Notes under the pieces: model-generated
The model's input: only the letters and a program-made list of their open reading frames with translations
Told to the model about the DNA's origin: nothing
Databases searched by the model: none
Shown: positions 293 to 26,672 of the stretch, in pieces
Layout: the number at the start of each line of letters is the position of its first letter
Numbering within the stretch: the stretch's first letter is position 1
Source: a virus
IMG/VR virus record: IMGVR_UViG_3300021364_000112
Location: 1-30,890 of that record
Strand: one strand, 5' to 3'
DNA length: 30,890 nt
Position numbers and translations under genes: made by a program

Positions 293-502
293 TTAGTATG
301 TACCAGCATCCTTGACAGTATCTACTGCCTTTTTACGGGATGTTGATTTTTCCAATTCAGAAACTTTATCTGAAAGTTCCGTTAATTTTTTAGTCAAAAT
401 AAGATTTTTTGCTTCAAGCATAATATTATCATTAACTAAAGAAGAGACCTTGCTTTGATAAACTGAAAGCAAGGTCTGTCCGTCAAGTTGAATTTCTTCC
501 AT
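293..502 (-). CDS. Small leucine-zipper protein with C-terminal GTY tail
   Basis: This 69-residue protein has no recognised family. Residues 10-52 look like a continuous amphipathic helix with leucine or valine at roughly heptad spacing (LILTKKLTELSDKVSELEKS), so a parallel coiled coil is likely. A short basic linker (STSRKK) follows, and then the tail VKDAGTY-stop. The same GTY tail ends the 590-residue fibre just upstream and the 91-residue protein at 2338. It lies between two fibre genes and has a late-promoter-like GATAAATA about 21 bases before its ATG. T4 gp57A, a small coiled-coil chaperone for fibre trimerisation, is a loose precedent in size and fold, but I see no sequence match, so assembly factor or minor virion component is inference. 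No strong ribosome-binding sequence precedes the start. Confidence 0.75.
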   Translation of the reverse strand: MEEIQLDGQTLLSVYQSKVSSLVNDNIMLEAKNLILTKKLTELSDKVSELEKSTSRKKAVDTVKDAGTY

Positions 503-2334: not shown

Positions 2335-2342
2335 TATTTAGT
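2335..2342 (-). promoter_or_regulatory. Weak late-promoter-like element ACTAAATA
   Basis: The minus strand reads ACTAAATAG, six of eight matches to TATAAATA, with 32 bases between it and the ATG of the 590-residue fibre. It overlaps the stop codon (TAA at 2340-2338) of the preceding 91-residue gene. Spacing resembles that of the two perfect elements at 26707 and 28735, but the match is poor and function is inferred only. Confidence 0.3.
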
Positions 2343-2613
2343 AAGTTCCATAATCTATAACATCATCATCCACGCCATCAGCACGATCTACCACTTCAAA
2401 TGCTGGTACATATTCGTGCTTTTGTGTAGTAGCATTCCAAATTAGAACATAATTATCTGCTCTATTTGTTGCATCTACATCATCTAGATTTGCTAGATTT
2501 GCTTCTAGAGTGGTTGGTGCCTCATCTACATCAACAATCTTTCTTCTCTCAGTTCTAGGAAAGGTCACATTATACTTACTAGTACTACTGAGTGTGACTT
2601 GATACTTACTCAT
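2338..2613 (-). CDS. Small virion-associated protein with GTY tail
   Basis: This 91-residue protein has a Thr/Ser-rich N-terminus (MSKYQVTLSSTSKYNVTFPR), then LANLDDVDATNRADNYVLIW and NATTQKHEYVPAFEVVDRAD. The pattern 'LDDVDAT..ADNYVLIWN..TQKHEYV' resembles short repeats in phage fibre and appendage proteins ('DG.VLVWD....KW'). The C-terminus, DDDVIDYGTY-stop, shares its last three residues with two neighbouring proteins. Its ATG overlaps the stop of the 123-residue gene as ATGA, and AGGAG lies five bases upstream, so the two are probably translated together. I do not recognise a named family. A small structural or adaptor protein of the tail appendage is the best guess from context. Confidence 0.75.
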   Translation of the reverse strand: MSKYQVTLSSTSKYNVTFPRTERRKIVDVDEAPTTLEANLANLDDVDATNRADNYVLIWNATTQKHEYVPAFEVVDRADGVDDDVIDYGTY

Positions 2614-3209: not shown

Positions 3210-6200
3210 TCAAGCAATTTTAAATAACCATTCAGCAAATGTTTTGCCTAGAATTCTACCGAACTCACTGGTATATTTAGGGAAGACTGAAACACTATCT
3301 GGTCTGGCAAACCCTACATATCCATTTACAACACCAACATTAGGTTTATCTAATGTAATTTGTGTTCCAGCAACAGATACTATTACTGCACCTGGAGCAA
3401 TACCTTCACCATATACACCAATACCAGATGGATCGCCAATAGGACTACCCTCATCATCGTATATTGCATCAGTTAAATTTGAACTAATATCAGTAGAAGT
3501 TGTAATAGTAGTTGAGTTAAATGATCCAGTCGCTAAAGAACTAAATCCTAACTGGAAGAATATTGCACCTCCAGTTTCTTTAGCAAGACTAACATGATCC
3601 CATCCAAAAGTATCTCCAGTTAATTGAATTTCTCCGGAAAAAGCTGTATCCTCATTTAAAATTTCTGTTGGGTTGCCAGGATCAAACTGTGCAAAAACTG
3701 GAGATACTGATCCACCAGATCCTGCATTTGTATCTGGGAATATCTTGATAGTCTGATCTGTAAAATCAATAAGTAAATCATTATCAACTGATATTACAAA
3801 TCCACCAAATGTCGAAACAGTTACATCAGTAATTAAAGTTCCTGCAGGGAATATATTTCCAGATCCCCCAATCGTTTCAATTTCTGCACCAACTTTAGGA
3901 GATTCTCCAACAGGAGTTACACCAGTTACACGAATTGATCTTCCGCCAGCTAAGTTATCACTGAAAGTATAATTTGTGGAACTTAATGTATTTGTTAGTG
4001 GAATATCTAAAGTTGCATAATAGTAAAATGGTGTTTCTGATGGGTCATCGACACCACTATTATACAAACTTTCTACTCTGATCGTATTGGACGCAATACC
4101 AGTACCATTTACATATTGTCCTGGTGCCAAGTCATTTAAATTAGTTACATCAAGAGCAATAGCATAACTACCAGCAACTCCGGTTGTAAATGTGAAATCT
4201 GCACCACCTCCACCTTGTCCAGATGATAATACATAGATATTTCCGCCAGCATCAACTAGTCCTATTTCCCCAGTAGATGCAATAAAATTATCAACATATG
4301 CTGGTCCATTAGCACCAGTATCAATACCAGTACCAGTGACGTTCATGCCCCTAACAATACCTTCATTTGCTCTAGTTCTTCCACCACCTCCACGGATTGT
4401 TAATACACTACCATTTGCAGTAGAATTGCATCGTTTGACTACTGTTGCTGGAGCTGCTCCCCCAGTAGAAATATTAATAGATTGCTCATCATTGATTAAA
4501 TCTGGACCAGCTGATAGTGGTGGTATCTGGAAAGTAAATATGGTTTGGGATATAGGTTCCTCTACTAGTGTCTTCACACCATTGTAATCTTCTGAAGTTA
4601 CGCCGCTAATACTAATCGTATCTCCATTTGACAAATTATGAGGACTCGCTCCACTAACTTCTATAATTGCATTTTCTGTAGTCTTATCATAAGTTGCACT
4701 TACAATATCTAGAGACCAGGATATTGGAGTTCCACTTCTATTTGGTGATAACTGAAGTGTCAAATAATTTGGATTATTATTTACATCTTTATCAACTGTT
4801 ACTAGATAATAAGTTGTTGATGAATTTACTCCGGGGAATCCTTTCAGATTTACCAACTTAACAAGGTCCTGTGACACTCCACCATCGGGACCAAAATATG
4901 TATCTGTAATTGGATTGGATCCAACATCAATTTGTTTATCCACCGTACCAGTTGCGCCCAACGCATCTAGTGGAGCATTGTTGTTGGGAAGTGTTCTACC
5001 ATCTCTGTAAATTGCATATCTAAATTTTGTCGTACTGATTACATTAGTAACTATATCCGGAGCAGCGTTACCAGATGTTGGGGTTTCATAATCACCAGCA
5101 GATCCAGCCCCAGTACCTGGAACTCCACCAGTAATGTTCAGTACAAATCTATTTCCAGCAAACATTCCATGAGGTGTTGATGTAGTAACCTCATATTCTA
5201 CTGTTTCTGGAATAACAACTATACTATTAATGCCATCTAAATTAGTTTGCTTGTCTGTAATTACAATTTCATTTGATGATGTGATATAAAAATAATGCTT
5301 ATCACCATCCTGAACTTGGAGGTTGTCATTTGATATTTGTCTAAAATTAATATCTCTCACCAGGAAATCTTTTGTTTTGTCTGGAGGAATTCCATCCTGC
5401 TCTGTATCTGTTGTATTAACAAATACAATTCTGTAAAAATCTTTTGTATATACTCCACCCAAAACTTTAATATAGGGGTTAGTTACCTCTCCAGTTCCCG
5501 CAATAACAGTTCCTATATTTCCGGATAAAGTTTTTGCGAATGCAAATTGAGTAGTTGGATCTGTTAAAACCGCATTGGTTGTTAAATCAACAGTTGCTTT
5601 TCCTGTGTTATAATCAAAAGGTCTGGTCCCTACAATTCCACTAACTCTAATCTCATCGCCATTTGATAGTCCATGTGGTTCTGATGTGGTTACAACAATT
5701 CGATTTACATCACCCACAGCATTAGAAACAAATCTGAGATATGGATATACTGGATCATTACTTGGTGTATTTAAATTTAGATATAATTTATTTGAATAAA
5801 CTGCAAACGTATCATTAATAACATCTGGAGATACGTTAATTACCTGACCACCGGTAGAATAAATTCCCGGATCTGCAAGTTGATCGTATTTTAATGTTGT
5901 ATTGCCAACTACCTGTGCAACTTTCCTTCCATTAAAACTTCCTTCTGGATTTCCAGTAGCAGTAATATCTTTAACGACAATATCGACGGTAGTTCTTCCT
6001 AATGGAGGAACAAATCCGTGAGGAGTTGTTGTCACTAAAGTTACATTTGAGTTATTAATAATTTCTCTAACTTCAATAATTAAATCATTTGTTGTTCCCA
6101 ATACTTCATAAGTCGCCTGCGTAGTAGCAGCAATTCCGGATATGATACCCGTATCTCCAATTTCATATCCATTTCCTGGGTTATTAACTTTTAAAGTTAA

Positions 6201-9200
6201 TATATCTAATTCCCCACTAGTTGTTGTAGAAAAATCAAAAGTTAAATTTCCATCACCGGTTCCTGTCGAAACTGTTGTGCTTACACCCACATAATCTTGA
6301 TCAGTCGGATATCCTGATCCATTTTCAGTTCCTCCTGCTCCGGTTAATGCGAAGCGCACAAATCTCGAACCACCAAGATCATATCCGGGAATTGTTATGA
6401 TTTCTGATACTTGGAAATCTCCACCCGGATCAAATAATTCAACATTATAAAGACCAGTTACTGTTTGGGTAACTATAAATGCAGCTCCTGTACCTTCAAA
6501 ACTACCAGCAATATTAGATACTGTAAATGACTGAGTTCCTATCACAGAAACTCCAGTAAATACAAATCCTAGCTCAGCAATTTCAGTTTCTCTATTCCAA
6601 ACGGCACTCAAAACATTTACTGGTGGATTAGTAATTTCTGATGGAGTTAAAATATCTCCCTTACTGTATCCATATCCAGTAAAAGTAACACTGACATCTG
6701 TTGCTCCTTTTCCTGGTTGCTCAGTTTCCAATGCAGTAAATTGTGCATCCGTAATTGAAATATCCTTGAAGTTATTAGTTTGTTTTACAAATACATTAAT
6801 TTGTTTGTCATTTCTTGGGAAACAAAATGCTACAGTTGCGTTATTGATATTACTTACAATTTCCTTACTTAAAGTAACATCATAATTAGGATTATTATCA
6901 ACAATAGTATTAGAAGTTACTTGAGTTTTTGATGCAAGTGTATCGGGATTTGACCAAGTATCATTTTCATTTGCCTCAAAAAAATTATCATTTGCTGATA
7001 AATTATCTGGGTCTATAATTTCAATAGTCCAATTATCAGTTCCCCAATCATCAATATTTTTTAATAGAACATTTGCTGCTACTCCCAAAGATCCTCCTGT
7101 TGGAGGTTGTATAGTGACTATATCACCTGGAGTGTATCCGGTTCCCCTATAAGATGGAGTTGCTGGAATCGTATATGGTGTTTTACTTAAAGACGCACTC
7201 ACTACAACCCCGCTATCAACTTCTATATCAAGTTTTAGTCCTGATCCTGTACCGCCACTTACATCTACAGCATCAGCAAAGAATGTTGTTTCAGCAGAAG
7301 CATTTTGATATCCAGTTCCTCCGGATTGAAGTTCAGTAAAATCTCTACCAAGATCTCTCCCTTCATCCTCAAAAAATTTAACATTTGTGATAGTAGCACC
7401 AAATCCAGCGGATGTTGTTACATCTGCTGTGTATTCTATAGGATAGAATATGATTGGAATTTCTTCTCCTGGAGTTACCTCAGCCTCTGTAGTTGTTCCT
7501 GGATCCAGTAGATCATTTGGAGTTCCTTTTGAAATATCTCTTATAGTTATAAATGCTTCCCCTGGAGCAATATTTGTTGTCTTAACTCTAAATTTTATAT
7601 CTCTTAAACCATCTACTGGATATGCAAAATATGGTATGCCAAAAGCATCAGTAATTGGAAGATCCACAAAGAAATCTCCAACTGGATACGAGGAGAAGTA
7701 CTGTAATGTTCCTGTAGTTTCTGATATTCTTAAAGTAACTAAAATTTCTTTTCTATCAAGTCCTGTACCAACCCCAGGTGGTTCAGATAATTCAAACTCC
7801 GTTGGAGTTGCAGAAATAGTTCTAGTATCATTTACACTAGTTGGATTAACATAATTAAACGTAGATTTTCTATAGAAACCTGTCGGAACATTTAATAATG
7901 AAGTCACATTGAGAACATATCCCAACTCATCAAAGTTTGTAATTGGAATTATTGTTCCAACATTATTTGGATATAAAAAATAGAAATTTTTGCTATCAAC
8001 AACTACAATGTCTCGTAATCCTTCTAGTTCTGCTGCACCAACCGCAACAATATTTTTTAATCTAATTCTTAACTCATCTAAAGGGTTGCCAAGTTGATGA
8101 TCATAGTAAGTAGTTATTCTCACAGATCCTACGGGATCTCCAACTGCGTTATATTGAACTTGTGAAATTGGAACTCCAATTCTGGCAGTCACCACTTCGC
8201 CTTTTAATGGTGTGAATCCTCTGGGATCTCCTTTGATTCCATCTGTACTGTCTTTTCTAAAAGTCTGAATTTCATTCTGACAAATTTCATTATTCTCTCT
8301 TGCGAAGGATCCACCAATTACTCCAATCCAGTATCCACCCGCATTATTGACTGTCTCTATAGTATCCAAAACTGAATTACTTGGAGTTGAAGATCCTCTA
8401 CTTCCTCTACTGGAAGATCCAGTTACACCTTGAGAATCCGTTGCTGAAATATAAAGTAAAGCTGCTCTACCTGTGCTGGTATAATCACCACCAATTCCAA
8501 CACCCCTCTGAATTCCTAAAGTTTTGATTAAATTATTAAATGTGTCTTCTTGTGAAAATACATCATCAGAACCAATAAGTTGTAGAGTAGTTCCTGTATC
8601 AACACTTCCGCCAATGTATAGAGTTTGAACTCCATCCGGTTCTAAGTTTTGATCCCACCCATCTAATGTTCCGGTTGGATTGTATGATGCCCAAAAATAC
8701 TTTAATCTGGCATCACCATAGACGTAATAATTTGTAGGTAGTTTTACAACTTGTGATTCTATGACCGCACCAGCATTTAAAAAACATTGGGGAGATCCAG
8801 CAGCAGCTGTAGTACCGATAGGCAATACAATATCATTCTGTGGATTCCTTAATTCGGTAATTACAGTTACTCCAGATTGATCACTCGTAAAAGTATTAGA
8901 TGCAATAATCTGATTTGCTACTCTATTATACACAGATATTATGGTCCCTGTAGGAATCCCTGGTCCAGTTATCGTTTGTCCAACAGCAAATGTTCCGGAA
9001 GTTGTTGTCAAATTTAAATCAATAACATTAGACCCATTATTATATGAAGCTCCTTGGATCGATCCTCTTAAAGTTTCTGTTAATAATAACTCATTTGTTA
9101 TCTTATAAAATTTTCCTGGTATTTGGAATGTATCTCCAGCAAGAGGATCTGTTGTTGTTATATATGTTATGGAAGTACTAGTAACGTTAGTTAAAACATA

Positions 9201-9836
9201 AGTTCCATTAAGTGATGTTGATGTTCCATTTGTGGTAAGTTGGTTATCAAGAATTACAACACTGTCGCCAATTTGTATATTATTTCCTGTGCTTGTTGCC
9301 TGAGTAAAAGCTTGCAGATTTTCTCTGCTATCTGTGTTTAGTACAACAGTCCATGTACTATCTCCATTGTCCGTAATACTTTGAACGCTATCAATAAGAA
9401 TGTTTTTTTCCCTTACAATTCCATATATTCTATATTGTTTTCCTTGAGATTGCCCATCTAGTGTTCCAAATGGCAGTGCATTTGATTCAAACTCTAGTAT
9501 ATCATCTTTGTTAAATGTTCCATTTGTGGGATCAATTGGATTTTGAAATTTTGATACAATCAAATTTCTCTGTACAATTCTTTGACCCTCACTCATCGTA
9601 GTGAAAGCAAATTTATTAGACTGGTTTGGGTTGAATTCATCAGTATCAACCCTACCAATCTGATTTTCTATCAGTGCGTCATTAAAACTAGTGACAACAG
9701 TATTGTCTGCCAACCAACCTTGAAATGGTTCAGTACCGACAGCATCATCTGTAGCAAAAATTGCATTGATTTTTAATGCACCTCTAAGAGTAGTGTTTGG
9801 ATTTCTACTCCGTATAAAATTAAATGGAACTGCCAT
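3210..9836 (-). CDS. Giant virion structural protein (2208 aa), modular and beta-rich
   Basis: This very long protein starts MAVPFNFIRSRNPNTTLRGA, is poor in Cys, and is rich in Thr, Gly, Asn and Val, as expected of an extended fibre or baseplate-associated protein. Two module types recur. The first is 'GxGYxxGDxxxI': GGTGYQNAS near residue 840, GTGYTPGDIVTI near 900, GYGYSKGDIL near 1056, GSGYPTDQ near 1175 and GNGYEIGDTGII near 1222. The second is 'PHGLSNGDxIxISG': near 1272 (PHGFVPP), 1389 (PHGLSNGDEIRVSG), 1557 (PHGMFAGNRF) and 1732 (PHNLSNGDTISISG). The latter is known in many phage structural proteins. A Ser/Arg-rich stretch (GSSSRGSRGSSTPSNS) lies near residue 480. The C-terminus is GRILGKTFAEWLFKIA. 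The ATG follows the stop of the 2846-residue gene after only three bases, in the same frame, with GGAA upstream, so coupled translation is likely. A tail appendage or baseplate-periphery protein is inferred; I know no precise name. Confidence 0.85.
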   Translation of the reverse strand: MAVPFNFIRSRNPNTTLRGALKINAIFATDDAVGTEPFQGWLADNTVVTSFNDALIENQIGRVDTDEFNPNQSNKFAFTTMSEGQRIVQRNLIVSKFQNPIDPTNGTFNKDDILEFESNALPFGTLDGQSQGKQYRIYGIVREKNILIDSVQSITDNGDSTWTVVLNTDSRENLQAFTQATSTGNNIQIGDSVVILDNQLTTNGTSTSLNGTYVLTNVTSTSITYITTTDPLAGDTFQIPGKFYKITNELLLTETLRGSIQGASYNNGSNVIDLNLTTTSGTFAVGQTITGPGIPTGTIISVYNRVANQIIASNTFTSDQSGVTVITELRNPQNDIVLPIGTTAAAGSPQCFLNAGAVIESQVVKLPTNYYVYGDARLKYFWASYNPTGTLDGWDQNLEPDGVQTLYIGGSVDTGTTLQLIGSDDVFSQEDTFNNLIKTLGIQRGVGIGGDYTSTGRAALLYISATDSQGVTGSSSRGSRGSSTPSNSVLDTIETVNNAGGYWIGVIGGSFARENNEICQNEIQTFRKDSTDGIKGDPRGFTPLKGEVVTARIGVPISQVQYNAVGDPVGSVRITTYYDHQLGNPLDELRIRLKNIVAVGAAELEGLRDIVVVDSKNFYFLYPNNVGTIIPITNFDELGYVLNVTSLLNVPTGFYRKSTFNYVNPTSVNDTRTISATPTEFELSEPPGVGTGLDRKEILVTLRISETTGTLQYFSSYPVGDFFVDLPITDAFGIPYFAYPVDGLRDIKFRVKTTNIAPGEAFITIRDISKGTPNDLLDPGTTTEAEVTPGEEIPIIFYPIEYTADVTTSAGFGATITNVKFFEDEGRDLGRDFTELQSGGTGYQNASAETTFFADAVDVSGGTGSGLKLDIEVDSGVVVSASLSKTPYTIPATPSYRGTGYTPGDIVTIQPPTGGSLGVAANVLLKNIDDWGTDNWTIEIIDPDNLSANDNFFEANENDTWSNPDTLASKTQVTSNTIVDNNPNYDVTLSKEIVSNINNATVAFCFPRNDKQINVFVKQTNNFKDISITDAQFTALETEQPGKGATDVSVTFTGYGYSKGDILTPSEITNPPVNVLSAVWNRETEIAELGFVFTGVSVIGTQSFTVSNIAGSFEGTGAAFIVTQTVTGLYNVELFDPGGDFQVSEIITIPGYDLGGSRFVRFALTGAGGTENGSGYPTDQDYVGVSTTVSTGTGDGNLTFDFSTTTSGELDILTLKVNNPGNGYEIGDTGIISGIAATTQATYEVLGTTNDLIIEVREIINNSNVTLVTTTPHGFVPPLGRTTVDIVVKDITATGNPEGSFNGRKVAQVVGNTTLKYDQLADPGIYSTGGQVINVSPDVINDTFAVYSNKLYLNLNTPSNDPVYPYLRFVSNAVGDVNRIVVTTSEPHGLSNGDEIRVSGIVGTRPFDYNTGKATVDLTTNAVLTDPTTQFAFAKTLSGNIGTVIAGTGEVTNPYIKVLGGVYTKDFYRIVFVNTTDTEQDGIPPDKTKDFLVRDINFRQISNDNLQVQDGDKHYFYITSSNEIVITDKQTNLDGINSIVVIPETVEYEVTTSTPHGMFAGNRFVLNITGGVPGTGAGSAGDYETPTSGNAAPDIVTNVISTTKFRYAIYRDGRTLPNNNAPLDALGATGTVDKQIDVGSNPITDTYFGPDGGVSQDLVKLVNLKGFPGVNSSTTYYLVTVDKDVNNNPNYLTLQLSPNRSGTPISWSLDIVSATYDKTTENAIIEVSGASPHNLSNGDTISISGVTSEDYNGVKTLVEEPISQTIFTFQIPPLSAGPDLINDEQSINISTGGAAPATVVKRCNSTANGSVLTIRGGGGRTRANEGIVRGMNVTGTGIDTGANGPAYVDNFIASTGEIGLVDAGGNIYVLSSGQGGGGADFTFTTGVAGSYAIALDVTNLNDLAPGQYVNGTGIASNTIRVESLYNSGVDDPSETPFYYYATLDIPLTNTLSSTNYTFSDNLAGGRSIRVTGVTPVGESPKVGAEIETIGGSGNIFPAGTLITDVTVSTFGGFVISVDNDLLIDFTDQTIKIFPDTNAGSGGSVSPVFAQFDPGNPTEILNEDTAFSGEIQLTGDTFGWDHVSLAKETGGAIFFQLGFSSLATGSFNSTTITTSTDISSNLTDAIYDDEGSPIGDPSGIGVYGEGIAPGAVIVSVAGTQITLDKPNVGVVNGYVGFARPDSVSVFPKYTSEFGRILGKTFAEWLFKIA

Positions 9837-15800: not shown

Positions 15801-18380
15801 TCTTGGTGGAACTAATCCAGTAATAAATGCCCCATTGTCTTGCTTGAATACTTCAGTTCTGTGATTAACAGCAATTAAAGATTGATTACCGAAGTTTGAG
15901 TTAGAGTTTGTAATTGAATGGTCTGCACCAGTTTCTACTGTGAAGTGATCCGCTTGTCCCACAGCAAACACAGATACAATCTGTAAGAAGGAATCGTTTC
16001 TGGACTTAATGTGGAAATGTCTCCAATCTTCTCTATACTCAGAAAGGGAGTTTGAATGTCTCTCGTCAGGATTCTCTATCTGATCTGTTGTGACACCGTT
16101 TAGAATAAACGCTCTATCATCCCTCTGTAGGGAGATTCCAGTGTATTGCGCCAACACCATGGAGCGAAGACCTGTAGATTGAGCACCATCGCTCAGAAGA
16201 CCACAGAGACCCCACACAGAGCGTAGTGAGATGTTAAACACATATGGAGATGCTGAAGCAACAGTATCAGAGAGGTACTTGTTTTGAACGAAACCAACGA
16301 TTCTGTTCTCTTCAATTCTCTGGTTGTAGTCCTCTTCACCAGTAGGTCCAGTTCCTGCCCCCACTGGAACTGCTGGAGATCCATCAATAATAGATTGAAT
16401 TGTGTCAATTAGAATATTCCATAGAACATTAATAGAAGATACAACATTCGCACAGTTTGCTGGATCCGTATTATCATCCAAATCATAACCAGTGCCAGAA
16501 ACTGTAGTATCTGGAGAAATGCTAAAGTCGTAAGACTGAGAACTGACAGTAACTCCTGCTGCTTGGGCGGTTGTGCTAGATGCCGCTGTGGATAGAGGCA
16601 CAGTAAAATTAGCATCATATGCAGCAAGTGCAGCAGCAACTAAACCGTCTTGATCAGCAAGAATATCATAGTTTCTAATTGCAAATTGCGACAGAATATT
16701 TGCCACCGCAAATACATCTACTGTCTCTTCTCTTTCCTGACCAGATAGTAAAGGACTGTCGATGTAAATTTGTGCAGCTGCAGCAACTCGATTGTTACCA
16801 CCATGAGATAAATTATATCCAAGTTCTACTAGAATATCTGCAACGTCATCTACACAAGCAGTACCAAATGTTCCAGTTCCTGCTCCTGGTGGAGTGTTGC
16901 CGACGTACTCATCAAACTGATTTACTCCACCAGGAGTTCCATCAGCAATCGCTTTTTCGACAACATAAGATACTGCAAGTTCTGCAATAAATCTTTTGTT
17001 TGCTAACAGTAGATTCTCTGCATCGTAGAATCTTTGTCCTGGTGGGGAAGTAGTTTCATCTAATCTACTATACTTATCAATTTTTCTGTAGTAATCTTCT
17101 AACTGCTCGTAGTTTGCATATTCAAAAGCGGTTAGTTTATGATGACTCCCATTTGCATTGGGTGTAAATTCGAGAAGAGCATCCTTGATTGTAAATTGCC
17201 AGATGTAACAAGCACCTGTCAGTCTGAACATAGAAGATCTGCCAACAGAATCATCTGCGGGATCTGGAACATACTTTGGTCTAATCAAAGTTTTGCGAAG
17301 GTCTAAACCTACAATAGAAGTACCTCTAGGTACAATAAGTCCGCCTTGAGGTGGATTAAACTTGTATAATTCATTTGCTACAGAAGAAGATGTAGCATAT
17401 GCTTCATTGGGTTGAGTTTTTATCTCTTCTGAAATATCTGCTGCTGTAAAAGCATTTCCTAATTCATTAACACCAGGTCTGTTGTCAATAATATATTCAC
17501 CAGGAAACAGAAGAATTGTGAAATTTTCAAATAAGTCGGATCCAGATTCTCCCTGCTCAGTTCCTTCTCCGGGTGCAACATAACTTCTTTTCGACGCTTC
17601 AATTAATGCCCTTTCAATTGACTTGAATGGTTTGTTAATATTACTACCATCATTTGTTGGTAGGTCAGAAGCATTCTCGTCATTTGCACTAACATACAAG
17701 ATTTTTTTGTTGTTAGTTACATTAATACTAGCTCCAGTATCTATTGCTGTTGCTAACTGAATTAATGATTCTTCGTTAAGAGCAATTCTTGCTTTCTCTT
17801 CTAATTTAATTAGATTTTTTTGGATATCAACCGGAGGACTTGTAGCAGCAGTTCTTAATCTACCTGTAACTCTTGCAGTTCTAGATTGAGAGTGAGCATC
17901 TACATCAGTATTAACGTTAAAAACATACTGACCAGTTCCATCTGGATCAGCGTTTCTGTTTCTAACATCACCCTTTATATTTGCCGCTCTAAGTTCTTTC
18001 TTATTTGGGTTATAACTTAATCTATCTTCTGTATCTCCATTACCAAAGTCATACTTAACACGGGAATAATCTAAACCTTGTGGATTAACGGCGTTTGGTT
18101 TGTCGAAAGATGCTTGATCTTTAAAGGAACCAGTATCCGCAAAAAGAAGTCTTTGATCTTGTGTGTATTGAGGTTGTCCGTCATTAATTTCATCAATAAA
18201 AATATCATCGACGGGAGATTCGATAACTTCGTTGATAGCATCTACAAGATTAGCACGACCAGAAACTGACAGATTAGTAGTATCTAACTGGGCTCTATCT
18301 CCAGTATCATCAGCAAGTAGGTTGATTTCCTCACGCTGCTGCTCAAAGGTAAATGATCTTTTTACTTCTCTTTTAGCCAT
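9840..18380 (-). CDS. Giant virion structural protein (2846 aa), beta-helix-like, with internal duplication
   Basis: This is the longest gene in the window. It starts MAKREVKRSFTFEQQREEIN. Near residues 225-250, ILYVSANDENASDLPTNDG and NKPFKSIERALIEASK are typical of the entry to a right-handed beta-helix (pectin-lyase-like). Next come LLFPGEYIIDNRPG and GGLIVPRGTSIVGLDLRKTL (about 290-355), then FRLTGACYIWQFTI (about 385). A helical module at about 453-664 (ANKRFIAELAVSYVV, CVDDVADILVELGYNLSHGG, NCANVVSSINVLWNILID) is echoed at about 1958-2227 (NRLFIQEEAAGYLIAE, CKRDVGYLLNALIKDLRLGG, KCDSVRSAIDVLYTIFSD). Near 2487-2545, WEYVGFGPGNYSTALPQ and GGGFVASSGTNSVGDFYIGN mark a second beta-helix-like part common in marine T4-like phage proteins. 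GGSGYSDGDRLTLPGG lies near 1860. The ATG overlaps the stop of the 65-residue gene as ATGGCTAA. A large tail or baseplate appendage is inferred; the host contact is unknown. Confidence 0.87.
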   Translation of the reverse strand: MAKREVKRSFTFEQQREEINLLADDTGDRAQLDTTNLSVSGRANLVDAINEVIESPVDDIFIDEINDGQPQYTQDQRLLFADTGSFKDQASFDKPNAVNPQGLDYSRVKYDFGNGDTEDRLSYNPNKKELRAANIKGDVRNRNADPDGTGQYVFNVNTDVDAHSQSRTARVTGRLRTAATSPPVDIQKNLIKLEEKARIALNEESLIQLATAIDTGASINVTNNKKILYVSANDENASDLPTNDGSNINKPFKSIERALIEASKRSYVAPGEGTEQGESGSDLFENFTILLFPGEYIIDNRPGVNELGNAFTAADISEEIKTQPNEAYATSSSVANELYKFNPPQGGLIVPRGTSIVGLDLRKTLIRPKYVPDPADDSVGRSSMFRLTGACYIWQFTIKDALLEFTPNANGSHHKLTAFEYANYEQLEDYYRKIDKYSRLDETTSPPGQRFYDAENLLLANKRFIAELAVSYVVEKAIADGTPGGVNQFDEYVGNTPPGAGTGTFGTACVDDVADILVELGYNLSHGGNNRVAAAAQIYIDSPLLSGQEREETVDVFAVANILSQFAIRNYDILADQDGLVAAALAAYDANFTVPLSTAASSTTAQAAGVTVSSQSYDFSISPDTTVSGTGYDLDDNTDPANCANVVSSINVLWNILIDTIQSIIDGSPAVPVGAGTGPTGEEDYNQRIEENRIVGFVQNKYLSDTVASASPYVFNISLRSVWGLCGLLSDGAQSTGLRSMVLAQYTGISLQRDDRAFILNGVTTDQIENPDERHSNSLSEYREDWRHFHIKSRNDSFLQIVSVFAVGQADHFTVETGADHSITNSNSNFGNQSLIAVNHRTEVFKQDNGAFITGLVPPRGLDPNEESSVNIYNIDYGTTLAKYDAAEKASPAGFRKIYVKVGGESLIKEGRIPEYYSLVPGTSTPQAELILDDVNYLMGKRTYSDGYPEAIYANLPKNFDDSTLSTFAARLREINYIGGSPDVYDPRPEYSEGKITGENPSLTGTAPGPAAIRTSLKNFVVLAGSNTDQPGDPGFVDAGTLTNLSTGATHFGNPTTGSPTIRSSIRLKIIVGNNLSTYKIVPAEGPIAGIAVKGVAVSPTLPTENVSYVATVAATGDQVQYTYNAVTYANGVQVNDPSNNNGAGAQFEILRCASSTEYAVRIINTGVTYNVGDSFTIPGSLLGGIDGEPEDATPGNNITIFVTETPSSGTDIGRGSAGDFKVNFVDSVTPANTEELRIYCTDATLRNQVFIETNELETYDSIEDVDYTIASGGFDAEYSFSLRETSGDTPWENLGSFSIGTVAGIPSTVFRKIRILGGSGFSADAGFNLIKFPGVKLGGSDNNNDFTVTITSVGGATISTLNYNDDGTTPKRRYYGWEFARTIDGEYYGRLVLLVDDERVNGITSIVGIPGSFAYTNNGETFDGYSASTTVNNATATTRSGLVFSRDITSVTNLTDGTFRINLTNPADKPEHPFFKGNEITINNVSTTAGGGASLDGTYKVLDRDNPLSSVVISVPDGASLPTTWNQVGGGSTIQRISESKTIPIKATIGNIVNGSGQILAVYPFDYVIGAAQQDYTTGWTKSGSNLSFDDRIFVDTGTGTPFLPQYDSVEFQIDPNDPNNLVTRANQLYGASSLKEAGYLQGSALGVDYTPYDESVSLEENTFNYPVGDAVDNVTLSLLRRITQRVDTDGSNTLDNIRDSFEFNDNIVSSLYVKRIQDSRASNGNSELIWRAICKIPKDGYNNIKLRAPEVKFILHIKDPALSYDDDTMDYPFVYDSAKIGLIRSVEVVSLGSPQTDVAPDAQEFFKSVRRGGSDAYVNYDQIDNIDSIGADNLVPSGATFDVTATEVIVKTGGSGYSDGDRLTLPGGTVVIVRESVTTYPKAFYVQKVEPVVEYEYNVRDGYYLLTLLDANVYEELVNGVIENNTKKIVYGKQRLIGLEELDGDGIPDEINHLKQDGSDLIEKNRLFIQEEAAGYLIAESQTGQQFAGFVNPDNDRCKRDVGYLLNALIKDLRLGGNNNIINTAQYYFSAGTQQFIETELPQTLATFGYAKHLAIAAMRNWQFYVQASSSPSSSTYAFANASEMDGIVEGMAIYEATGSNLPSDAASYATAEASLSNGVGGVGQVLGYVGEIDRSAFTITVYDTQDRDTRIASNRASNTELVIKFVMNTGMGPDWNDATAYTTKPVFDNSVIIDYDQSTDSKCDSVRSAIDVLYTIFSDILNANQAVVSSGVIPQTATFEVPTGAIQPNETIRIFGGQNPAFNGEEIVITAGDITTGAPNDTIEYQLDVNFTSPISDNILWYKSAVVYAEPTKASYNTKEVLLEGIGYNQNINYLYPETDLDNPKWNPKPSVTVYRKDVGNTVIRDNTLLADGYERISQYSITAESTKKVLNEILNANGYAGRTFAEIDLQSVFGAGVTTVTDTEMQAPYGTGDTRNEYGVSKSAVLEFTAQNVPIFTDRCITFNKAIPVSFYRPSIIRASSHTWEYVGFGPGNYSTALPQFQDITLTQQETINSQTSERGGGFVASSGTNSVGDFYIGNQIIDAKGNQSNTLNFPRVKTSAENRLIDYTNLDSLASNSSTASFNPSSFSAVLTNELQAIQEAQRNSFKSSNIESSILTAGTLKINNKISISNNVFENEENFPVARQDKFGFTRRAPINWFNNDSASVEYKALADSFISPTDLSDWANVNSLIPSTPVDWVVNYKPETTYNNSTNVGDVDINDTLTKSVNFRVTGINPIDERWYDATNDTLGIPLGSPIDEVNNTNLATYNGRAGQIFVTFPTAVNAAFVAPTNIWKPIDNTWTSIDQEFGNAVNYIRGTEFVVSYYITDGKIIYSVSTLDSE
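11698..12505 (-). repeat. Second copy of a duplicated helical module in the 2846-aa protein
   Basis: Encoded residues of about 1958-2227 match the module at about 453-664 in order and spacing of key residues: N..FI.E....Y, then C..DV...L..L...L..GGNN, then AA or TA.QYY or QIY, and a later KCDSVRSAIDVLY against NCANVVSSINVLW. The similarity is at protein level and was judged by eye. Confidence 0.6.
16387..17020 (-). repeat. First copy of a duplicated helical module in the 2846-aa protein
   Basis: Encoded residues of about 453-664 contain ANKRFIAELAVSYVV, CVDDVADILVELGYNLSHGG, NNRVAAAAQIYID, AIRNYDIL and CANVVSSINVLWNILID. Each has a counterpart in the same order in the copy at 11698-12505. 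A single-protein duplication or module acquisition is the simplest reading. Confidence 0.6.
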
Positions 18381-18570
18381 GTCGTTTTATATGCTCCAGT
18401 AACAGAAGTTTAAGTTCCCGTATTTCTTCCTTCAAACTATTTATGTCATCCGACGTTGAATCAAAATGCTTTTTTATTGTGTTGCGGCTTGGTTTTTTGG
18501 TGGTAAATATAGCACCAGTATTTGGGTCACGATATAAATTATCGTGACCTTCTACTTTATAATAATCCAT
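18373..18570 (-). CDS. Small conserved T4-like phage protein, KVEGHxNLxRD type
   Basis: This 65-residue protein begins MDYYKVEGHDNLYRDPNTGA, then IFTTKKPSRNTIKKHFDS. The N-terminal signature 'YKVEGHxNLxRDxxTGAI.T' is one I recognise from many T4-like marine phage genomes, where its function is not known. The second half (DDINSLKEEIRELKLLLLEH) is a predicted coiled coil with leucines in heptad positions. The ATG overlaps the preceding stop as TAATG (18572-18568), and its own stop lies inside the start of the 2846-residue gene (ATGGCTAA). It is therefore an overlapped middle gene, probably translated by coupling. A small tail or assembly protein is inferred from its neighbours only. Confidence 0.85.
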   Translation of the reverse strand: MDYYKVEGHDNLYRDPNTGAIFTTKKPSRNTIKKHFDSTSDDINSLKEEIRELKLLLLEHIKRHG

Positions 18571-19049
18571 TATGAAGAAGCAACTATTCTTATATCTTGT
18601 AGTTTTGGAGTGAAGACTGGAGTATCTGTTTTCAATATAACTTTTACTTGATATCTTGTGTATTCAGGTAAATCGTTTGTATAGTATTTTAGTTCCTGGT
18701 AATCTTCTCTAGTTTCAAGAACTCCAGAAACACTATCTTTCTTGGAGAATCTTGCTGTAGATAGATCTAAATCTAAATACTCCCACTTAATTGAAGAGAG
18801 TGATTCTTGAGCATCAGAATCTAAAATTCTATACATGACAATTATATCCGATGCGGATCTGCTATTTGCTGTCAGTCTTACATCCAGACTTGTTGCTGGA
18901 ACATTTAATGAGACTTCCTTAGTTAAATATTTTGCAGATGAAGAAGTATCCGTAATTTCAATATCTCCTTTGTAATCAACACCGTTAGTAAAGTCTATTG
19001 ACTTCACTCTAATTTGTCCTGGAATTCCATAGGAAATGTAATCATTCAC
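18570..19049 (-). CDS. C-terminal part of the DUF4815-type protein, downstream of an in-frame UGA (or separate 159-aa protein)
   Basis: Taken alone this is a 159-residue frame starting at a GTG at 19049 with no clear ribosome-binding site. The same frame is open upstream for 98 more codons, back to the UGA that ends the 2442-residue protein, and contains no ATG, GTG or TTG before 19049. The region from 19343 to 18570 therefore encodes 257 residues continuous with the giant protein. Its end (AKYLTKEVSLNVPATSLDVR, LPEYTRYQVKVILKTDTP, VFTPKLQDIRIVASS) has the pattern 'YITK.V.L..P...L.V.....LP.FT...IK.V.K...P...P.I.D.R.I' that I associate with C-termini of large structural proteins of marine T4-like phages. 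It is thus more likely a C-terminal domain than an independent gene. It overlaps the next ATG by one base. Confidence 0.7.
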   Translation of the reverse strand: MNDYISYGIPGQIRVKSIDFTNGVDYKGDIEITDTSSSAKYLTKEVSLNVPATSLDVRLTANSRSASDIIVMYRILDSDAQESLSSIKWEYLDLDLSTARFSKKDSVSGVLETREDYQELKYYTNDLPEYTRYQVKVILKTDTPVFTPKLQDIRIVASS

Positions 19050-19346
19050 TCGGAATATATCTTTCTGTTGTTCTGATAAAGATGATGCTCTTCCATATTC
19101 AGTATTTGGTTCGGAAGCACTAACAAAATTATCATTAATCGGTTGCTTCTCAACTTGTAAAGTAAGTAGTCCGGATATGGAATCCCAAACAACAACAGTT
19201 CCATCAATTATAGTTTCGTACTCAATACCTGCATCAATACTATATGCAATAACTTTATCACCAATATCAAAAGATGGTACTAGTCTGGAAGTAGGAGATT
19301 CTATGGAAATATAAACGGATGGTACATTATATGCAACATCAACTCA
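19050..19346 (-). other. In-frame UGA and 98-codon open link between the 2442-aa protein and its apparent C-terminus
   Basis: The minus strand at 19355-19341 reads CTATTAACATGGTGAGTT (with its surroundings), ending ...GELLTW-UGA-VDVAYN. All 98 codons from 19343 to 19050 are sense. They read VDVAYNVPSVYISIESPTSR, later FDIGDKVIAYSIDAGIEYET and WDSISGLLTLQVEKQPINDN. The 'IGDKV...G.V..WDS..G.L.L' pattern resembles the module just before the UGA (GAEGRIIQVNGSTLTVRM). No in-frame start codon serves this stretch. Confidence 0.8.
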
Positions 19347-22300
19347 CCATGTTAATAGCTCACCAGATTCAAAAATACCGTTATTTAGCATTCTAACTGT
19401 AAGAGTGCTGCCATTTACTTGAATAATTCTTCCTTCTGCTCCAGAATTTACACCAACAATAGACTGATTATTAGATATTGCGCTAGCACCAACTATAGAC
19501 ATAGTATATACAGGCCAGAACTCAAGAACTTCATATCTCTTTCCATATCTATCTTCTTTTCCGGAACCATTTTCAACTCTTGTTGAATATGTTTTGACAG
19601 TACAGTTATTTAAATCCACAACGGGAGTTAAGTAATCTACTTGAGAAGATAATTTTAATTTGTATGATAATGATTTTCCAGTATCATTAAGAAGTTCATT
19701 TATCTTAGAAGTCACAAATTTTTGATTTTCGAAATACTGCTCTTCATTTAAAAATGTTGTTTGATAATCAGAGACTGAATATGAAGTATAAACAGCGGAA
19801 GTGGAATCAATTGGAACTACATTTACAGTCTTGATCGTGGAATCGATCTTAGTTTTTGGTAATTGTAAATTGTAAATATCTGCATATAATTTTTCATACT
19901 TGATATTTTTTGGAGCAAATATTCTAGCACCACCAGCTTTCTTAGACTCTGCCGCTCTGGAAGCAGATGTCACTGTAAATGTATCTAAACCGACTGAAGA
20001 AACTTTATACAGTTCTTTAGTAAATTGAGTTCCGGAAATTCCGGAGAAATTATCAACAAATTTAAAGAATGTTCTTGATTTTCCTGAAGATTCGAATCCA
20101 TGATCACGTTGCGTAACTTTGATAATTGAGTTATTGTTTTTAAATAATTTCGAAGTTGCGCTAGCGTTTGAGGTCGCACTAGTTTGTAGTGGATTTGTAA
20201 TTAACTTTTGGTATGCAGTATCATCATTAACTAGTGTAATTTCAGAATCTATTGCTGTATCAAATTTAGCTCTATTTAAGGTAAATTTAACATCTTCAAA
20301 AATATCCTCAACCCAAGTATCAGTATTTTGTGACTTATAGAGAGATCCAAGTGATGGTTGGGAACTTACCTTAACACCACTAATTTTTTCCAATTCTCCC
20401 AATCTGGAAGTCCATAGTGCATATTCTGTAGAATCAGTTTCTATTTGCAATGCATAATCTGTATCATTTTTTAGATAAACTGGGTAGTCGAACTTGAATT
20501 TTGTTAGAGTTGTAGAATCCGAATTTGTACCATCATCTACAGCAATACCCATTCTAACAGCAAAGGTGTCGATTTCTAATATTGCTCTAATTGAAGCTCC
20601 AGTCGCTCCGTTACCAATTCCCTTAATGATAACTGATGGAGGGGATGTGTATCCAGATCCTGGAATAGCAACCTCAGCATTATAAATGATACCCTCAGAT
20701 ACGGATAGTGAAGCAACTGCTAAACTTTCTCCTGGTAATTGTGGGCTTTCTACTGTAACTACAGCACCCTGATAATTTGATCCGACGTTATCAATTACGA
20801 ATTTTTTAATTTTACCGTAATTTTTTGTAATTTTTACACTAATATTTGAATTTTTTACATTGTTATATTCAGCAATTTTAGCAGAAGACAGATTCTCGTC
20901 AGGGATAAACTCTTTTCCGTTGTGGTTTGATAATACAAATGTGTATATCTGCTCATTATTTAAATTATAATTTAAATCATTAATCAATGCGATTTCGTTT
21001 CCATTGGAGTCCAAAATCTTTTCAATTGGTCCTGAACATCCAGAAGAAACTCCACTGATTATATCATTTTTTTCTATCGTGATATTTCCAGAAACTGTAA
21101 CTTTCAAGAAAGTTTTGGGCAGCATTACGACTTCTGTTCCTGGAACAATATTTTTGCCAGGTTTTCCAATAGACATATCAGAGATATAAGCTTTGATTGG
21201 AATCTCTTGACTCTTCTTATTAAAGAATAGATCTACAGAAGTAACAAAAACACCACCATCAAAATTCTCAATTCTAAAAGTTTGTGCAAGTGGATTTGGT
21301 TTTAGTGGGTTGTCAGTGTTGCTTGCAATAAATTGTACGCCTTCGTTTGCCTTGAAGTAAGAAGGTTGAGTGGAAATAATGTCTGATGGATTTTGTACTT
21401 TACTTCCCTTAGAATAGAAAATAACTTCAGAGTAAGACTCAACGTTATTTTTAGATTCATTAGTTTTACTTGTTGTAAATCTAATGCTCTTTTGACCAGA
21501 AGTAAATTTAATTATTTCTCCTCCTGTATCGTATTGAACATCAAAAATATTTCCATTCCAAGATGTTCCCTGTACTGGTGGATATCCACTTGGTAGTAAA
21601 ATAAGACCACTAGCGTTACCATATTCATCAGTTACAATTTCAGTTCCAAATGCAGTCAAAGAAGACGTTGGAATTCCACTAAACTTAGAATCTGGGCAAA
21701 CCCATCTACTAACATCTCTTCCATCAATAAATGGATAGATGACAGTCTTTGGTTTCATTCTAGTAACAGTAAATTTGATAGGTATTGATCTAGCAAATAA
21801 CTGAAGTGAAGATGAGATAGATGCATCGCCAATAGTATTTGCTGCCAATCCTTTACCAATTTCGTTATTATTAGGATTAACATTAGAGGAGCTACTAATG
21901 TAAGAGTCTTGAGATTTTGATAGAGAACTATTAGTATTTTGCTGAGACAGTGGATTAATTGATAGGAATGATTGATTGACACCTACCCAATTGATCAAGA
22001 ACGAATTTGATATCGATGCAAACGCTTCTCGTGGATTATCTCCCTTCGCAATGAAAACGTTAAAAATATTTGTGTTCGTATTAGTAACTAAAGGAATAGT
22101 ATCTAAATCGAACCATTGATCAACCGTTGGCGATACTTTTATATCACCAACATATTGTAAGACAACAAATGGGTTTGGATTGATTAAACTAGTTGCTGAA
22201 CTATTTCCCAACAAAGTTGTTGAAGTAAATGGTAAAGTCACAATATTGTTATTCACTACATAACCATCAAAAAATCTTTCATCCTCTCTTGTGTTTGCTT

Positions 22301-25300
22301 CAATTAAATTGATGTTATCTTCATATGCTTCCGGTTTCAATACCGATTGTTGTGGATCAATCGAGCAGACGTATTCACTTGAAGAAATATCACCAACACC
22401 ATGAGACTCAAAATTATCAACCAAAAATCCACTCTTAAATCGATCAAATCCAAAATCATCTTTAATCTGCATGTTTAGAGCCTGTTGCTCAAGTATGCTT
22501 AGAGATGTATAATATTCAAGTCTTTCGATTCGCTTTTCCAACTTAGCGATATCTTTCATTGTAAAACGCTTATTATCAACAGGAACAAGTTTTACATCTT
22601 TTGATGATTTTGTTAGTGATGGTAAATAAATGTAGTACAGTGGTATTGCGTCTTCTAGCGAATCTGGTCTAGATGGATTCTTGGATGAGTTACCTTTCTT
22701 CAGAACAAAACTTCCATCCTTGGACAAGAATAGCGCATCAATTCTATCCAAGTAACTGGACTCATCAAATTTAAATGTATATTCTATTCCACCAGAAGCG
22801 GGAGTTACTGATGGTGCTCCTCCATCACCAATAAATGATGTGTAATTTCCTGATGATAAAATTGAACTATTTTGATAACCACTAGTAGTTTGTGTTGTAT
22901 CTACTTTTGGTCTAAAGTCAATTACATCACCAAGAGATATTCTTCCATCTTTTGAATTGTAGGTTGGAATATCTGCAATATCTACTCCAGATTCGTGGTT
23001 ATATGAATCAACAGTACAGAATTGACCTTGAGAATGCTTGAAATAATCAAATCCAATTACTAATTGTCCAGTTGGTGATGGGAATCCGGGTTTCAGAATC
23101 AATCTTGATACATCATAGAATGTGTCTCTTTGCCCGTCATCAAACACAAAATAATCTGTAACATCGTTTCCTTCAACTAGAATACCGCTAGCATCAACTG
23201 AAGGTGGAGAAGTAACAGTTCCTTCATAAACATATCTTAGTTTATATACATCAGAGTAAGAGAAAACCCCAACATCACCAGTATCGTAGTCTTGTCCTCT
23301 TATTGGAACAACCTTGTCCAATGCTGAAGCAACTAAAATTCTCTTATTTTCTACTGAAGTTTTTAATTTTGGTTTTGCCTTTGATACTTCTAAAGTAGCG
23401 GTAAGTTTTATCTTTGGATATGTAGTTAAATTTGATCCAAAAAATTCAGATGGGAATGTTACAGTTACTGAACCCGCAACTAAACCAGTATTACTGTCTG
23501 AAGATTGGACTATGTTAATATATTCAGACTTTAGATAAACAATATCTCCTTTTGCAAAAGATACAGTTTGTCCTTGACCGGGATCTAGAACAGTTATCAG
23601 ATAATTCTTTTGATTAAACGCCGCAAATCTTTGTGTTCCGAATGGCAACTGCGCTGCAAATGTGATATCCCCAGCAGCAGAAGTTCCCTCAGAAACAAAA
23701 TCTCTTCTGAAGAAATATGATATTTTAGAATCAGTTATATCTTTAACGAGACTTTCCACATCTTTACTACCAGTTGGCACTAGTAGAGATGATGATGGAT
23801 TCTCCACAAATGTGGAAATTTTTGTCACCACAGAATTAGTAACTGAAACATCAAGAGTTCGATTTAAATAAATTCTTGCTTGCTTATTTGTAAATGTAGA
23901 AGTTGCATATCTAACACTTGTTTTGATAACCTTTCCCTCATCATCTACAAACTGAATTATATCCCCTTTCTTTAAAAATTTGTTTAGGTCTTTAGATAAA
24001 GCATTTACTGTAATGTAATTAAAACCTTCCTTTCCAGAGAAAGTGGAATCAGTAACGTTTTTGAAAATTGCGTATCTGGAATTATCCGATTCGATATTTG
24101 CAGTAAAGATGTTTTCACCTTGAGATCCAGATCCATAACGTGCATACAAAGATTTTACTTGAGATGAGTTATACTTTGTAATTACATCTTTATGGAGTAC
24201 GGCACTAACAATAGCTCCATTTCCTGTAGAAATAGAAATTGTTGGTGGATTTTCGTATGTGGTTTCTTTTACTGACTCATCAACAAAATCTATAGTCACC
24301 ACAGATTCAGTAATTGTATTTACAGAGATCTTAGATCTATCATAGGTGATGCCATCTAAAGTAATTTGTGATCCTGAGCTATAGTCATCTCCTCCAGAAT
24401 GGACAACAAAATGGGAGATTGTATTGTTTTTAGCAATCTTTACAGTATTATTGTTTTCGTCAATAAGGGTCTCCCCCTCCACAAACGTCCCCTGTTGCAC
24501 TTTTAAGTGCAATGTATCCGTAGAACTATAATAACCACCTCTGATGCCTTCTACGACTCCGTAGGCACCACTGGTGGATCCTGTGACATAGCTTCCTGGT
24601 TCAAATCCAGCAGTAATTAGATTTTGTAGAGTTATTTTGGTGAAGTAAGTTGCATTAAAATACTTGTAATTAAAAATTCCATTATATACTTCTACATTAT
24701 TTTCTTTTCCCTTAGACGCTACCTTGTCGCTAATAGGATTAAATCCTGCTCCGGTTTCCACAAAAGCAAAATCAGAAGGTTTGCAAATACCAATAAGTGG
24801 TGATTTAGTAGAAGTATAATCTACAATACTACCCCAGTAGTAATTAGCAGGAACGAAACCAGTCTCTGGATCAATATCATTAATGTCAAATGCAGATGAT
24901 TGACTTAAAAATACTCTCCTTCTTCCATTTGGATCAGAAAGATCATAATCTTTATAATATGCATCTATAATGTCTCTTCTACCAACGATGTCCATTTCAA
25001 CAAAAAGTTTTGTTGATACGGTATTTCCAGCAATAATTTGACTTCGTGTTAATTTACTATTTAAAATACGAGCATAATTAACTAGAGCAGTTCTTGGATT
25101 ACCTGTTCCTTCTTCGGTTTGCACTAACTGAATGATCCAAATATATGAACCATTTGGTGGTAAGTATAATGGATCCGGAGAACCAAGAGTATCCCCATTT
25201 ACTGTCCCCAAAGGAGATCTTTCAATTAGAATTGTCTTAACGCCAATATCAGAAGGATCCAGATCTAGTTCAACACCATCAATAATGTCACCTTCATGAA

Positions 25301-26672
25301 TCAACTTACCTCTGTTGTTATTAAAAACATCGAATAAAAATACTGAAGGATATGAACTCAATTCAACACCTTCAGCATTAACTGGAATAGTTCCATGTAC
25401 ATTGGTGACATAGAATGAACTTAGTCCAGAAAAAGTCAAGCGAACATCATTTCTGGTAATTGTATCTGTCGCTTTATCGAGTGTAATATATTTTGTTTCT
25501 TTGTTAATTACTTCGAAACCTTTTACATATGCCTTACCAGTTCCTACGGTTCCTAGTAATTTAGAATTAGCTTCCGATTCAGTGAGACCATTTACTAATC
25601 CTGTATTATTAGATTTTGCAAAGACCCCACCATTGTTATCTTTTTGATAGTACTCTCTAACATCAAAATCAAAATTAGATACTACATAATCACCAGACTC
25701 ATCATATGTTCTTCTTGCTAAAGTAGTTTCAATTAGCGAATATTCATCTCTAGTAACTTTTTTCTCTACAGATCCATTTTTAATAGATAGTAATAAAATA
25801 CTATTTTGTCCCAGTGTTTGTCTGTATCCGTATTTTTTTGCAATAAGATCTATCTTTAATCTATGTGCTCCTGGAGCACTAAAATTAGAACTTCCTCTAG
25901 AATTGTCGAATAGAGAAGAATCTTCTTCCGGAGTAACAATAGATTCTTCAATATCAAAAGCAATTTTTCCAGATGCTCTATTATTATATGCGTCTAAAAT
26001 TACAAGTTGCTCTCTGTTAGTAACAAAAAATCCATTTACGAAATAAACACCTTCCTGAATAGATACGCCAGAGGAAAATCCTAGTGCAGGACTAACTTGA
26101 GTTCTTACTTCGCCAGTATCTATATTTTCTATTTCAATAAAATTAGGAAGAACGGCACCGTCTGTACCAACCGTTAGAATTGGAGTATTGACTCCATCAA
26201 CAACCTCAAGATTCTCTCCTTGCCTGAAGGTTGCTTCTAAGTTAGAGTCTCCGCTTGAAATATATGAAACAAAAATAGTGTCCGACGACTCTTCTGTTTC
26301 ATACTGAGTTTTTAATACAATAGCTTGAACACCAGAAGTAATGCCAACTAGTTTCTCGCCAACTAGTTGTGCGATATCATATTTTTTAAATACAATTTCT
26401 CCGTCTTCGTTTATGGGAACTTCAGAAACCGAAGAAATTTTTACATAATTTAATTGAGTGTTTAGTCCAACTTCACCAGGAATAACTAGTTGTCCCTGCT
26501 TAAATTGGTAATTTCCATATTTTTCAATTTGATCCTGAAGGATACTCTGTAAAGTAGTTAATTCCCTACTTTGAACAGAGTATCCCGGTCTGAACAAAAC
26601 TTTATAAAAGTTTTTGTTTGGATCGTAGTCGTCATAATATGGAGAGACATTAAGGTTAGTATTCTGTGCCAT
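19344..26672 (-). CDS. Giant virion structural protein, DUF4815 type (2442 aa to a UGA)
   Basis: The protein begins MAQNTNLNVSPYYDDYDPNK, then NFYKVLFRPGYSVQSRELTT, the 'SPYYDD...NF.K.LFRPG..VQ.RELT.LQ..LQ.QIE..G' signature of DUF4815 proteins of T4-like marine phages. Other typical parts are IAKLEKRIERLEYYTSLSIL near residue 1375, FTVTRMKPKTVIYPFIDGRD near 1634 and PLAQTFRIENFDGGVFVTSV near 1800. A Ser/Asn-rich linker (QQNTNSSLSKSQDSYISSSS) lies near residue 1575. GxxY modules occur near 1963 (GSNYQGAVVTV) and 2007 (GSGYTSPPSVII). A perfect late-promoter octamer lies 34 bases before the ATG. The frame ends GIFESGELLTW-UGA, yet stays open for 257 further codons. The full product would be about 2700 residues if the UGA were read through. 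Role: virion structural protein, probably tail or baseplate appendage, with no enzymatic motif seen. Confidence 0.88.
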   Translation of the reverse strand: MAQNTNLNVSPYYDDYDPNKNFYKVLFRPGYSVQSRELTTLQSILQDQIEKYGNYQFKQGQLVIPGEVGLNTQLNYVKISSVSEVPINEDGEIVFKKYDIAQLVGEKLVGITSGVQAIVLKTQYETEESSDTIFVSYISSGDSNLEATFRQGENLEVVDGVNTPILTVGTDGAVLPNFIEIENIDTGEVRTQVSPALGFSSGVSIQEGVYFVNGFFVTNREQLVILDAYNNRASGKIAFDIEESIVTPEEDSSLFDNSRGSSNFSAPGAHRLKIDLIAKKYGYRQTLGQNSILLLSIKNGSVEKKVTRDEYSLIETTLARRTYDESGDYVVSNFDFDVREYYQKDNNGGVFAKSNNTGLVNGLTESEANSKLLGTVGTGKAYVKGFEVINKETKYITLDKATDTITRNDVRLTFSGLSSFYVTNVHGTIPVNAEGVELSSYPSVFLFDVFNNNRGKLIHEGDIIDGVELDLDPSDIGVKTILIERSPLGTVNGDTLGSPDPLYLPPNGSYIWIIQLVQTEEGTGNPRTALVNYARILNSKLTRSQIIAGNTVSTKLFVEMDIVGRRDIIDAYYKDYDLSDPNGRRRVFLSQSSAFDINDIDPETGFVPANYYWGSIVDYTSTKSPLIGICKPSDFAFVETGAGFNPISDKVASKGKENNVEVYNGIFNYKYFNATYFTKITLQNLITAGFEPGSYVTGSTSGAYGVVEGIRGGYYSSTDTLHLKVQQGTFVEGETLIDENNNTVKIAKNNTISHFVVHSGGDDYSSGSQITLDGITYDRSKISVNTITESVVTIDFVDESVKETTYENPPTISISTGNGAIVSAVLHKDVITKYNSSQVKSLYARYGSGSQGENIFTANIESDNSRYAIFKNVTDSTFSGKEGFNYITVNALSKDLNKFLKKGDIIQFVDDEGKVIKTSVRYATSTFTNKQARIYLNRTLDVSVTNSVVTKISTFVENPSSSLLVPTGSKDVESLVKDITDSKISYFFRRDFVSEGTSAAGDITFAAQLPFGTQRFAAFNQKNYLITVLDPGQGQTVSFAKGDIVYLKSEYINIVQSSDSNTGLVAGSVTVTFPSEFFGSNLTTYPKIKLTATLEVSKAKPKLKTSVENKRILVASALDKVVPIRGQDYDTGDVGVFSYSDVYKLRYVYEGTVTSPPSVDASGILVEGNDVTDYFVFDDGQRDTFYDVSRLILKPGFPSPTGQLVIGFDYFKHSQGQFCTVDSYNHESGVDIADIPTYNSKDGRISLGDVIDFRPKVDTTQTTSGYQNSSILSSGNYTSFIGDGGAPSVTPASGGIEYTFKFDESSYLDRIDALFLSKDGSFVLKKGNSSKNPSRPDSLEDAIPLYYIYLPSLTKSSKDVKLVPVDNKRFTMKDIAKLEKRIERLEYYTSLSILEQQALNMQIKDDFGFDRFKSGFLVDNFESHGVGDISSSEYVCSIDPQQSVLKPEAYEDNINLIEANTREDERFFDGYVVNNNIVTLPFTSTTLLGNSSATSLINPNPFVVLQYVGDIKVSPTVDQWFDLDTIPLVTNTNTNIFNVFIAKGDNPREAFASISNSFLINWVGVNQSFLSINPLSQQNTNSSLSKSQDSYISSSSNVNPNNNEIGKGLAANTIGDASISSSLQLFARSIPIKFTVTRMKPKTVIYPFIDGRDVSRWVCPDSKFSGIPTSSLTAFGTEIVTDEYGNASGLILLPSGYPPVQGTSWNGNIFDVQYDTGGEIIKFTSGQKSIRFTTSKTNESKNNVESYSEVIFYSKGSKVQNPSDIISTQPSYFKANEGVQFIASNTDNPLKPNPLAQTFRIENFDGGVFVTSVDLFFNKKSQEIPIKAYISDMSIGKPGKNIVPGTEVVMLPKTFLKVTVSGNITIEKNDIISGVSSGCSGPIEKILDSNGNEIALINDLNYNLNNEQIYTFVLSNHNGKEFIPDENLSSAKIAEYNNVKNSNISVKITKNYGKIKKFVIDNVGSNYQGAVVTVESPQLPGESLAVASLSVSEGIIYNAEVAIPGSGYTSPPSVIIKGIGNGATGASIRAILEIDTFAVRMGIAVDDGTNSDSTTLTKFKFDYPVYLKNDTDYALQIETDSTEYALWTSRLGELEKISGVKVSSQPSLGSLYKSQNTDTWVEDIFEDVKFTLNRAKFDTAIDSEITLVNDDTAYQKLITNPLQTSATSNASATSKLFKNNNSIIKVTQRDHGFESSGKSRTFFKFVDNFSGISGTQFTKELYKVSSVGLDTFTVTSASRAAESKKAGGARIFAPKNIKYEKLYADIYNLQLPKTKIDSTIKTVNVVPIDSTSAVYTSYSVSDYQTTFLNEEQYFENQKFVTSKINELLNDTGKSLSYKLKLSSQVDYLTPVVDLNNCTVKTYSTRVENGSGKEDRYGKRYEVLEFWPVYTMSIVGASAISNNQSIVGVNSGAEGRIIQVNGSTLTVRMLNNGIFESGELLTW

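Follow-up and report, generated by a model that had tools for sequence, protein, structure and literature searches.

A lone in-frame TGA in the DUF4815 virion protein gene of a T4-like viral contig is very probably a one-base error or a very recent nonsense mutation

Introduction

The cyanophage gene annotated as 'virulence-associated structural protein' (T4-GC 828; P29B0810_086 in S-WAM2, p084 in S-PM2 and Syn1_097) is a single unbroken ORF sited after gp8, and it is followed, where annotated, by the small gene described below. A shorter DUF4815 protein, ORF65 of Staphylococcus phage phi812 (about 1,150 residues), is present in the solved baseplates 9euf and 9eui. A search of the literature on DUF4815 yielded nothing useful. 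Among bacterial stop codons, UGA is the leakiest. A described case of a virion gene with an in-frame stop followed by a long open extension is that of Q-beta, in which the readthrough stop of the coat gene is UGA (PMC8067240) and the extended A1 protein is a minor form by design. Here we describe a DUF4815 gene that carries one in-frame TGA in an IMG/VR fragment of 30,890 bases (the window) from a marine T4-like phage, and we compare it with these systems.

Results

The ORF listing and its translation revealed a minus-strand frame of 2,700 codons (26672-18570) that ends in TAA (18572-18570) and contains one internal stop, a TGA at codon 2443. The features considered below are as follows.

18570..26672, minus strand: gene of a DUF4815 / phrog_358 virion (likely baseplate) protein, complete but for one TGA interruption (ORFs, Pfam and PHROG profiles, tblastn, and phi812 ORF65 as remote homologue)
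19344..19346, minus strand: in-frame TGA; GGA (Gly) in the 93%-identical relative L002, while other relatives encode an amino acid there, Ser or Gly in most
18570..19343, minus strand: the 'extension', which is the normal C-terminal 257 residues of the DUF4815 protein (phrog_358 end match; dN/dS 0.138 versus L002)
18373..18570, minus strand: 65-residue gene, phrog_473, whose start overlaps the stop of the DUF4815 gene (TAATG), a junction conserved in relatives

The 2,442-residue ORF (26672-19344) ends in ...GELLTW, and 257 sense codons follow the TGA in the unchanged frame up to the TAA. Beyond the TGA, 98 codons pass without an ATG, GTG or TTG before a GTG at 19049 offers the first in-frame start. 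An open stretch of this length exceeds chance, since none of 20,000 base shuffles remained open. The sequence-only reading that preceded this work had described the single TGA, the 257-codon continuation and the start-less link in the same terms, and ORFs and translation confirm that description.

All of the frame belongs to a single known gene (DUF4815, phrog_358, cyanophage T4-GC 828, "VrlC-like"). The Pfam profile PF16075 matches its N-terminal and middle parts with 155 bits, which confirms the DUF4815 assignment proposed earlier, and the PHROG profile phrog_358 matches with 1734 bits, C-terminal end included. The last 140 residues or so, which lie 3' of the TGA, match positions 1934-2054 of the 2056 of phrog_358 and are also common to pelagiphage Mosig. 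In tblastn searches, residues 1-2699 aligned with the single genes of cultured cyanophages at 47-49% identity. The usual layout of the family, one unbroken ORF of about 2,700 residues downstream of gp8, is reproduced in the window except for the single TGA, and we take this departure as a lesion in a member of DUF4815 / phrog_358 rather than as a sign of non-membership. A sequence search of the PDB returned one relative, phi812 ORF65 (E = 2.8e-24), and because this protein belongs to solved baseplates a baseplate role is likely for the family. The phi812 protein is much shorter than the 2,700 residues of the window protein, and although its baseplate 9eui was the only PDB hit of the modelled C-terminal region at E<=0.001, the global fold overlap of that model was weak (TM 0.16).

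The neighborhood is a T4-like virion module, with gp8 upstream (PF09215, phrog_438) and, downstream, the 65-residue gene, a 2,846-residue tail-fibre-like gene and more structural genes. The coupling through TAATG into the 65-residue gene (18570-18373), which in turn overlaps the 2,846-residue gene, is real, as the sequence-only reading had it. The further proposal that the level of readthrough sets downstream expression found no support: an overlapping ATG is present at the same junction in 67 of the 127 loci scored, and the coupling is a family-wide gene junction that has no connection with the TGA and needs no readthrough to account for it. Elsewhere in the module, three otherwise unlike small or structural proteins of the window (293-502, 530-2302 and 2338-2613, minus strand) share a GTY end (...KDAGTY, ...IDGGTY and ...IDYGTY), which was absent from the S-WAM2 module genes checked and could be a C-terminal assembly or attachment signal. 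The minus-strand gene at 3210-9836 encodes a predicted structural protein of 2,208 residues with no Pfam or PHROG match.

In the relatives examined, a sense codon stands where the window has the TGA, and the remaining frame of the window gene is intact. All 16 relatives from phage records, cultured or single-cell-derived (S-WAM2, S-CAM1/3/4, ACG-2014e/h/i/j, S-RSM4, S-PM2, Syn1, S-H9-2, S-RIM32, Sf-FR1, Sf-CH3 and the single-cell AG-345-P14), contain one ORF of 2,694-2,820 residues with no internal stop. More than 130 IMG/VR loci were also gathered by profile, and the comparison of 150 related loci over a 441-residue region showed it unbroken in 144, cut by contig ends in five and frameshifted elsewhere in one (L143). 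None of the 150 has a stop at the equivalent position, where serine (69 loci) and glycine (31 loci) prevail over glutamine, threonine, glutamate and others, and GGA is among the two commonest codons. A search of prokaryote genomes revealed no relative.

The 1,928-residue form in Synechococcus phage S-B43 (MN018232.1; 116561-122347 and 162953-163321) was considered as a precedent for a short C terminus and rejected, as a further gene segment lies on the other strand about 41 kb away. Its DUF4815 match ends at residue 1920 and resumes on that opposite strand for residues 1941-2064, which suggests that an inversion or an assembly break falls within the gene. A second gene of the DUF4815 type lies near 26-31.6 kb in the same record.

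The only close relative found, L002 (IMGVR_UViG_3300018421_007711), shares 93% identity with the window in the C-terminal region, and the two can be aligned over 1,767 codons with no gap. Where the window reads ACA TGG TGA GTT GAT, L002 reads ACA TGG GGA ATT GAT, so that the stop codon differs from a glycine codon by a single G-to-T change. Between the two sequences dN/dS was 0.073 over the 1,509 codons 5' of the stop; the 224 codons immediately 5' of it gave 0.145 and the 257 codons on its 3' side 0.138. These values average the whole divergence and do not date the stop. Purifying selection on the extension is of ordinary strength and matches that on the sequence preceding the stop, which indicates that for most of the divergence between the window and L002 the C terminus was translated and kept under selection. 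Around the stop, divergence from L002 exceeds that of the gene on average, with 9 differences (counted by eye) in about 60 nucleotides versus 387 in the 1,509 codons. When contigs carrying the exact flanking sequence of the window were searched for, two window-specific patterns gave no match and a degenerate pattern matched L002 only; the collection may lack records very close to the window, and the searches could thus have missed a population fixed for TGA.

In an AlphaFold model of the C-terminal 441 residues (mean pLDDT 72, pTM 0.57), the stop falls at model residue 184, just past a strand in a mostly well-predicted, beta-rich stretch (about 121-300), with no clear domain boundary there. 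According to this model, which is of moderate quality, the 2,442-residue product would probably end inside a folded region.

Discussion

The most satisfactory explanation, and one that we hold with strong confidence from the sequence comparisons, is that of an ordinary single gene for a T4-like baseplate or virion protein of about 2,700 residues in which one G-to-T change would have turned a glycine codon (GGA) into TGA, either through an error or through a very recent nonsense mutation; we infer that the TGA is not part of any mechanism. It could have arisen by base calling or assembly, or could represent a minority variant where coverage was thin; it could also be a real nonsense mutation, very recent or at low frequency. 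The assembled sequence would fit either origin, and we lean somewhat towards an error or thin-coverage variant, since a genuine nonsense allele of a conserved virion gene would rarely be expected to reach the consensus. If real, the TGA would truncate the protein in a predicted beta-rich region and remove a conserved C-terminal domain. The sequence-only reading had offered three explanations, of which a nonsense change or a base error is supported and programmed readthrough is not, given that homologues carry a sense codon at the site and L002 carries GGA.

Programmed readthrough would resemble that of Q-beta A1: as an innovation of its own, this lineage would make a 2,442-residue protein and, in smaller amounts, a version extended at the C terminus. 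The extension is intact and constrained in the same frame, and the stop is both the leakiest one and the one read through in the Q-beta coat gene. However, the stop is not conserved: no relative examined, the 93%-identical L002 included, has a stop at the site, and the alignment of homologues that had been proposed as a check shows them reading through, mostly with serine or glycine, which speaks decisively against readthrough. Sequence on either side of the stop varies more than the gene as a whole, whereas a conserved readthrough signal would make it vary less; no stable RNA fold was found at the stop (z = +1.4, weaker than shuffles), and the site had no Rfam match. Moreover, the C-terminal end is widely shared, and therefore the long form is the ancestral, normal product. 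In contrast to Q-beta, the stop of the window gene is private to one contig among the relatives examined, and all of those relatives have the extended form as their normal product. Readthrough of this kind is thus very unlikely, and a real lineage-specific leaky UGA yielding truncated and full-length forms of a T4-like baseplate protein is likewise very improbable.

Reading of the codon as tryptophan or another residue, through reassignment of UGA (code 4) or suppression by a phage or host tRNA, would account for a frame that stays open and constrained past the TGA, but we regard it as extremely unlikely. TGA is the true stop of gp8, as noted before, and of three more genes of the window (at 530, 2610 and 3210), it occurs in frame just once in the coding DNA of the window, and TGG is used as usual, with 12 occurrences in the DUF4815 gene and 20 in the 2,846-residue gene; since UGA ends four other genes and TGG is normally used, the code is unchanged. 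The relatives, which are cyanophages, use the standard code, and no tRNA gene lies within the 30,890 bases. A selenoprotein UGA was also considered, but no cysteine occurs at the roughly 149 homologous positions, which argues against it; such a codon would also go with a SECIS stem-loop, and no Rfam match was obtained.

An ordinary boundary between two genes, with the C-terminal part translated from the GTG 98 codons past the stop, is exceedingly improbable, as no relative examined is split there, the GTG sits within the conserved frame without a visible Shine-Dalgarno sequence (AAAGATATATTCCGA-GTG), and the 98 codons of the link are conserved between the window and L002 as well (dN/dS 0.21).

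A lone lesion in this gene is not exceptional. Two others, unrelated to it, were found in 133 IMG/VR loci (182,316 codons), a rate of about 1 per 90,000 codons that corresponds to about 0.1 expected per 30-kb window of coding DNA, and therefore one such lesion among many scanned windows is unremarkable. Lone nonsense codons and frameshifts occur in about 1-2% of metagenomic contigs of the DUF4815 gene at scattered positions, and thus an in-frame stop that is not conserved in relatives is not evidence of recoding. Naive annotation would split the gene into two false genes. Locus L082 has an isolated TAG at its codon 49, where the window protein has tyrosine. In L143, a 2-bp deletion near 3762 relative to contig L023, which is otherwise 99.93% identical over 7.4 kb, breaks the DUF4815 frame.
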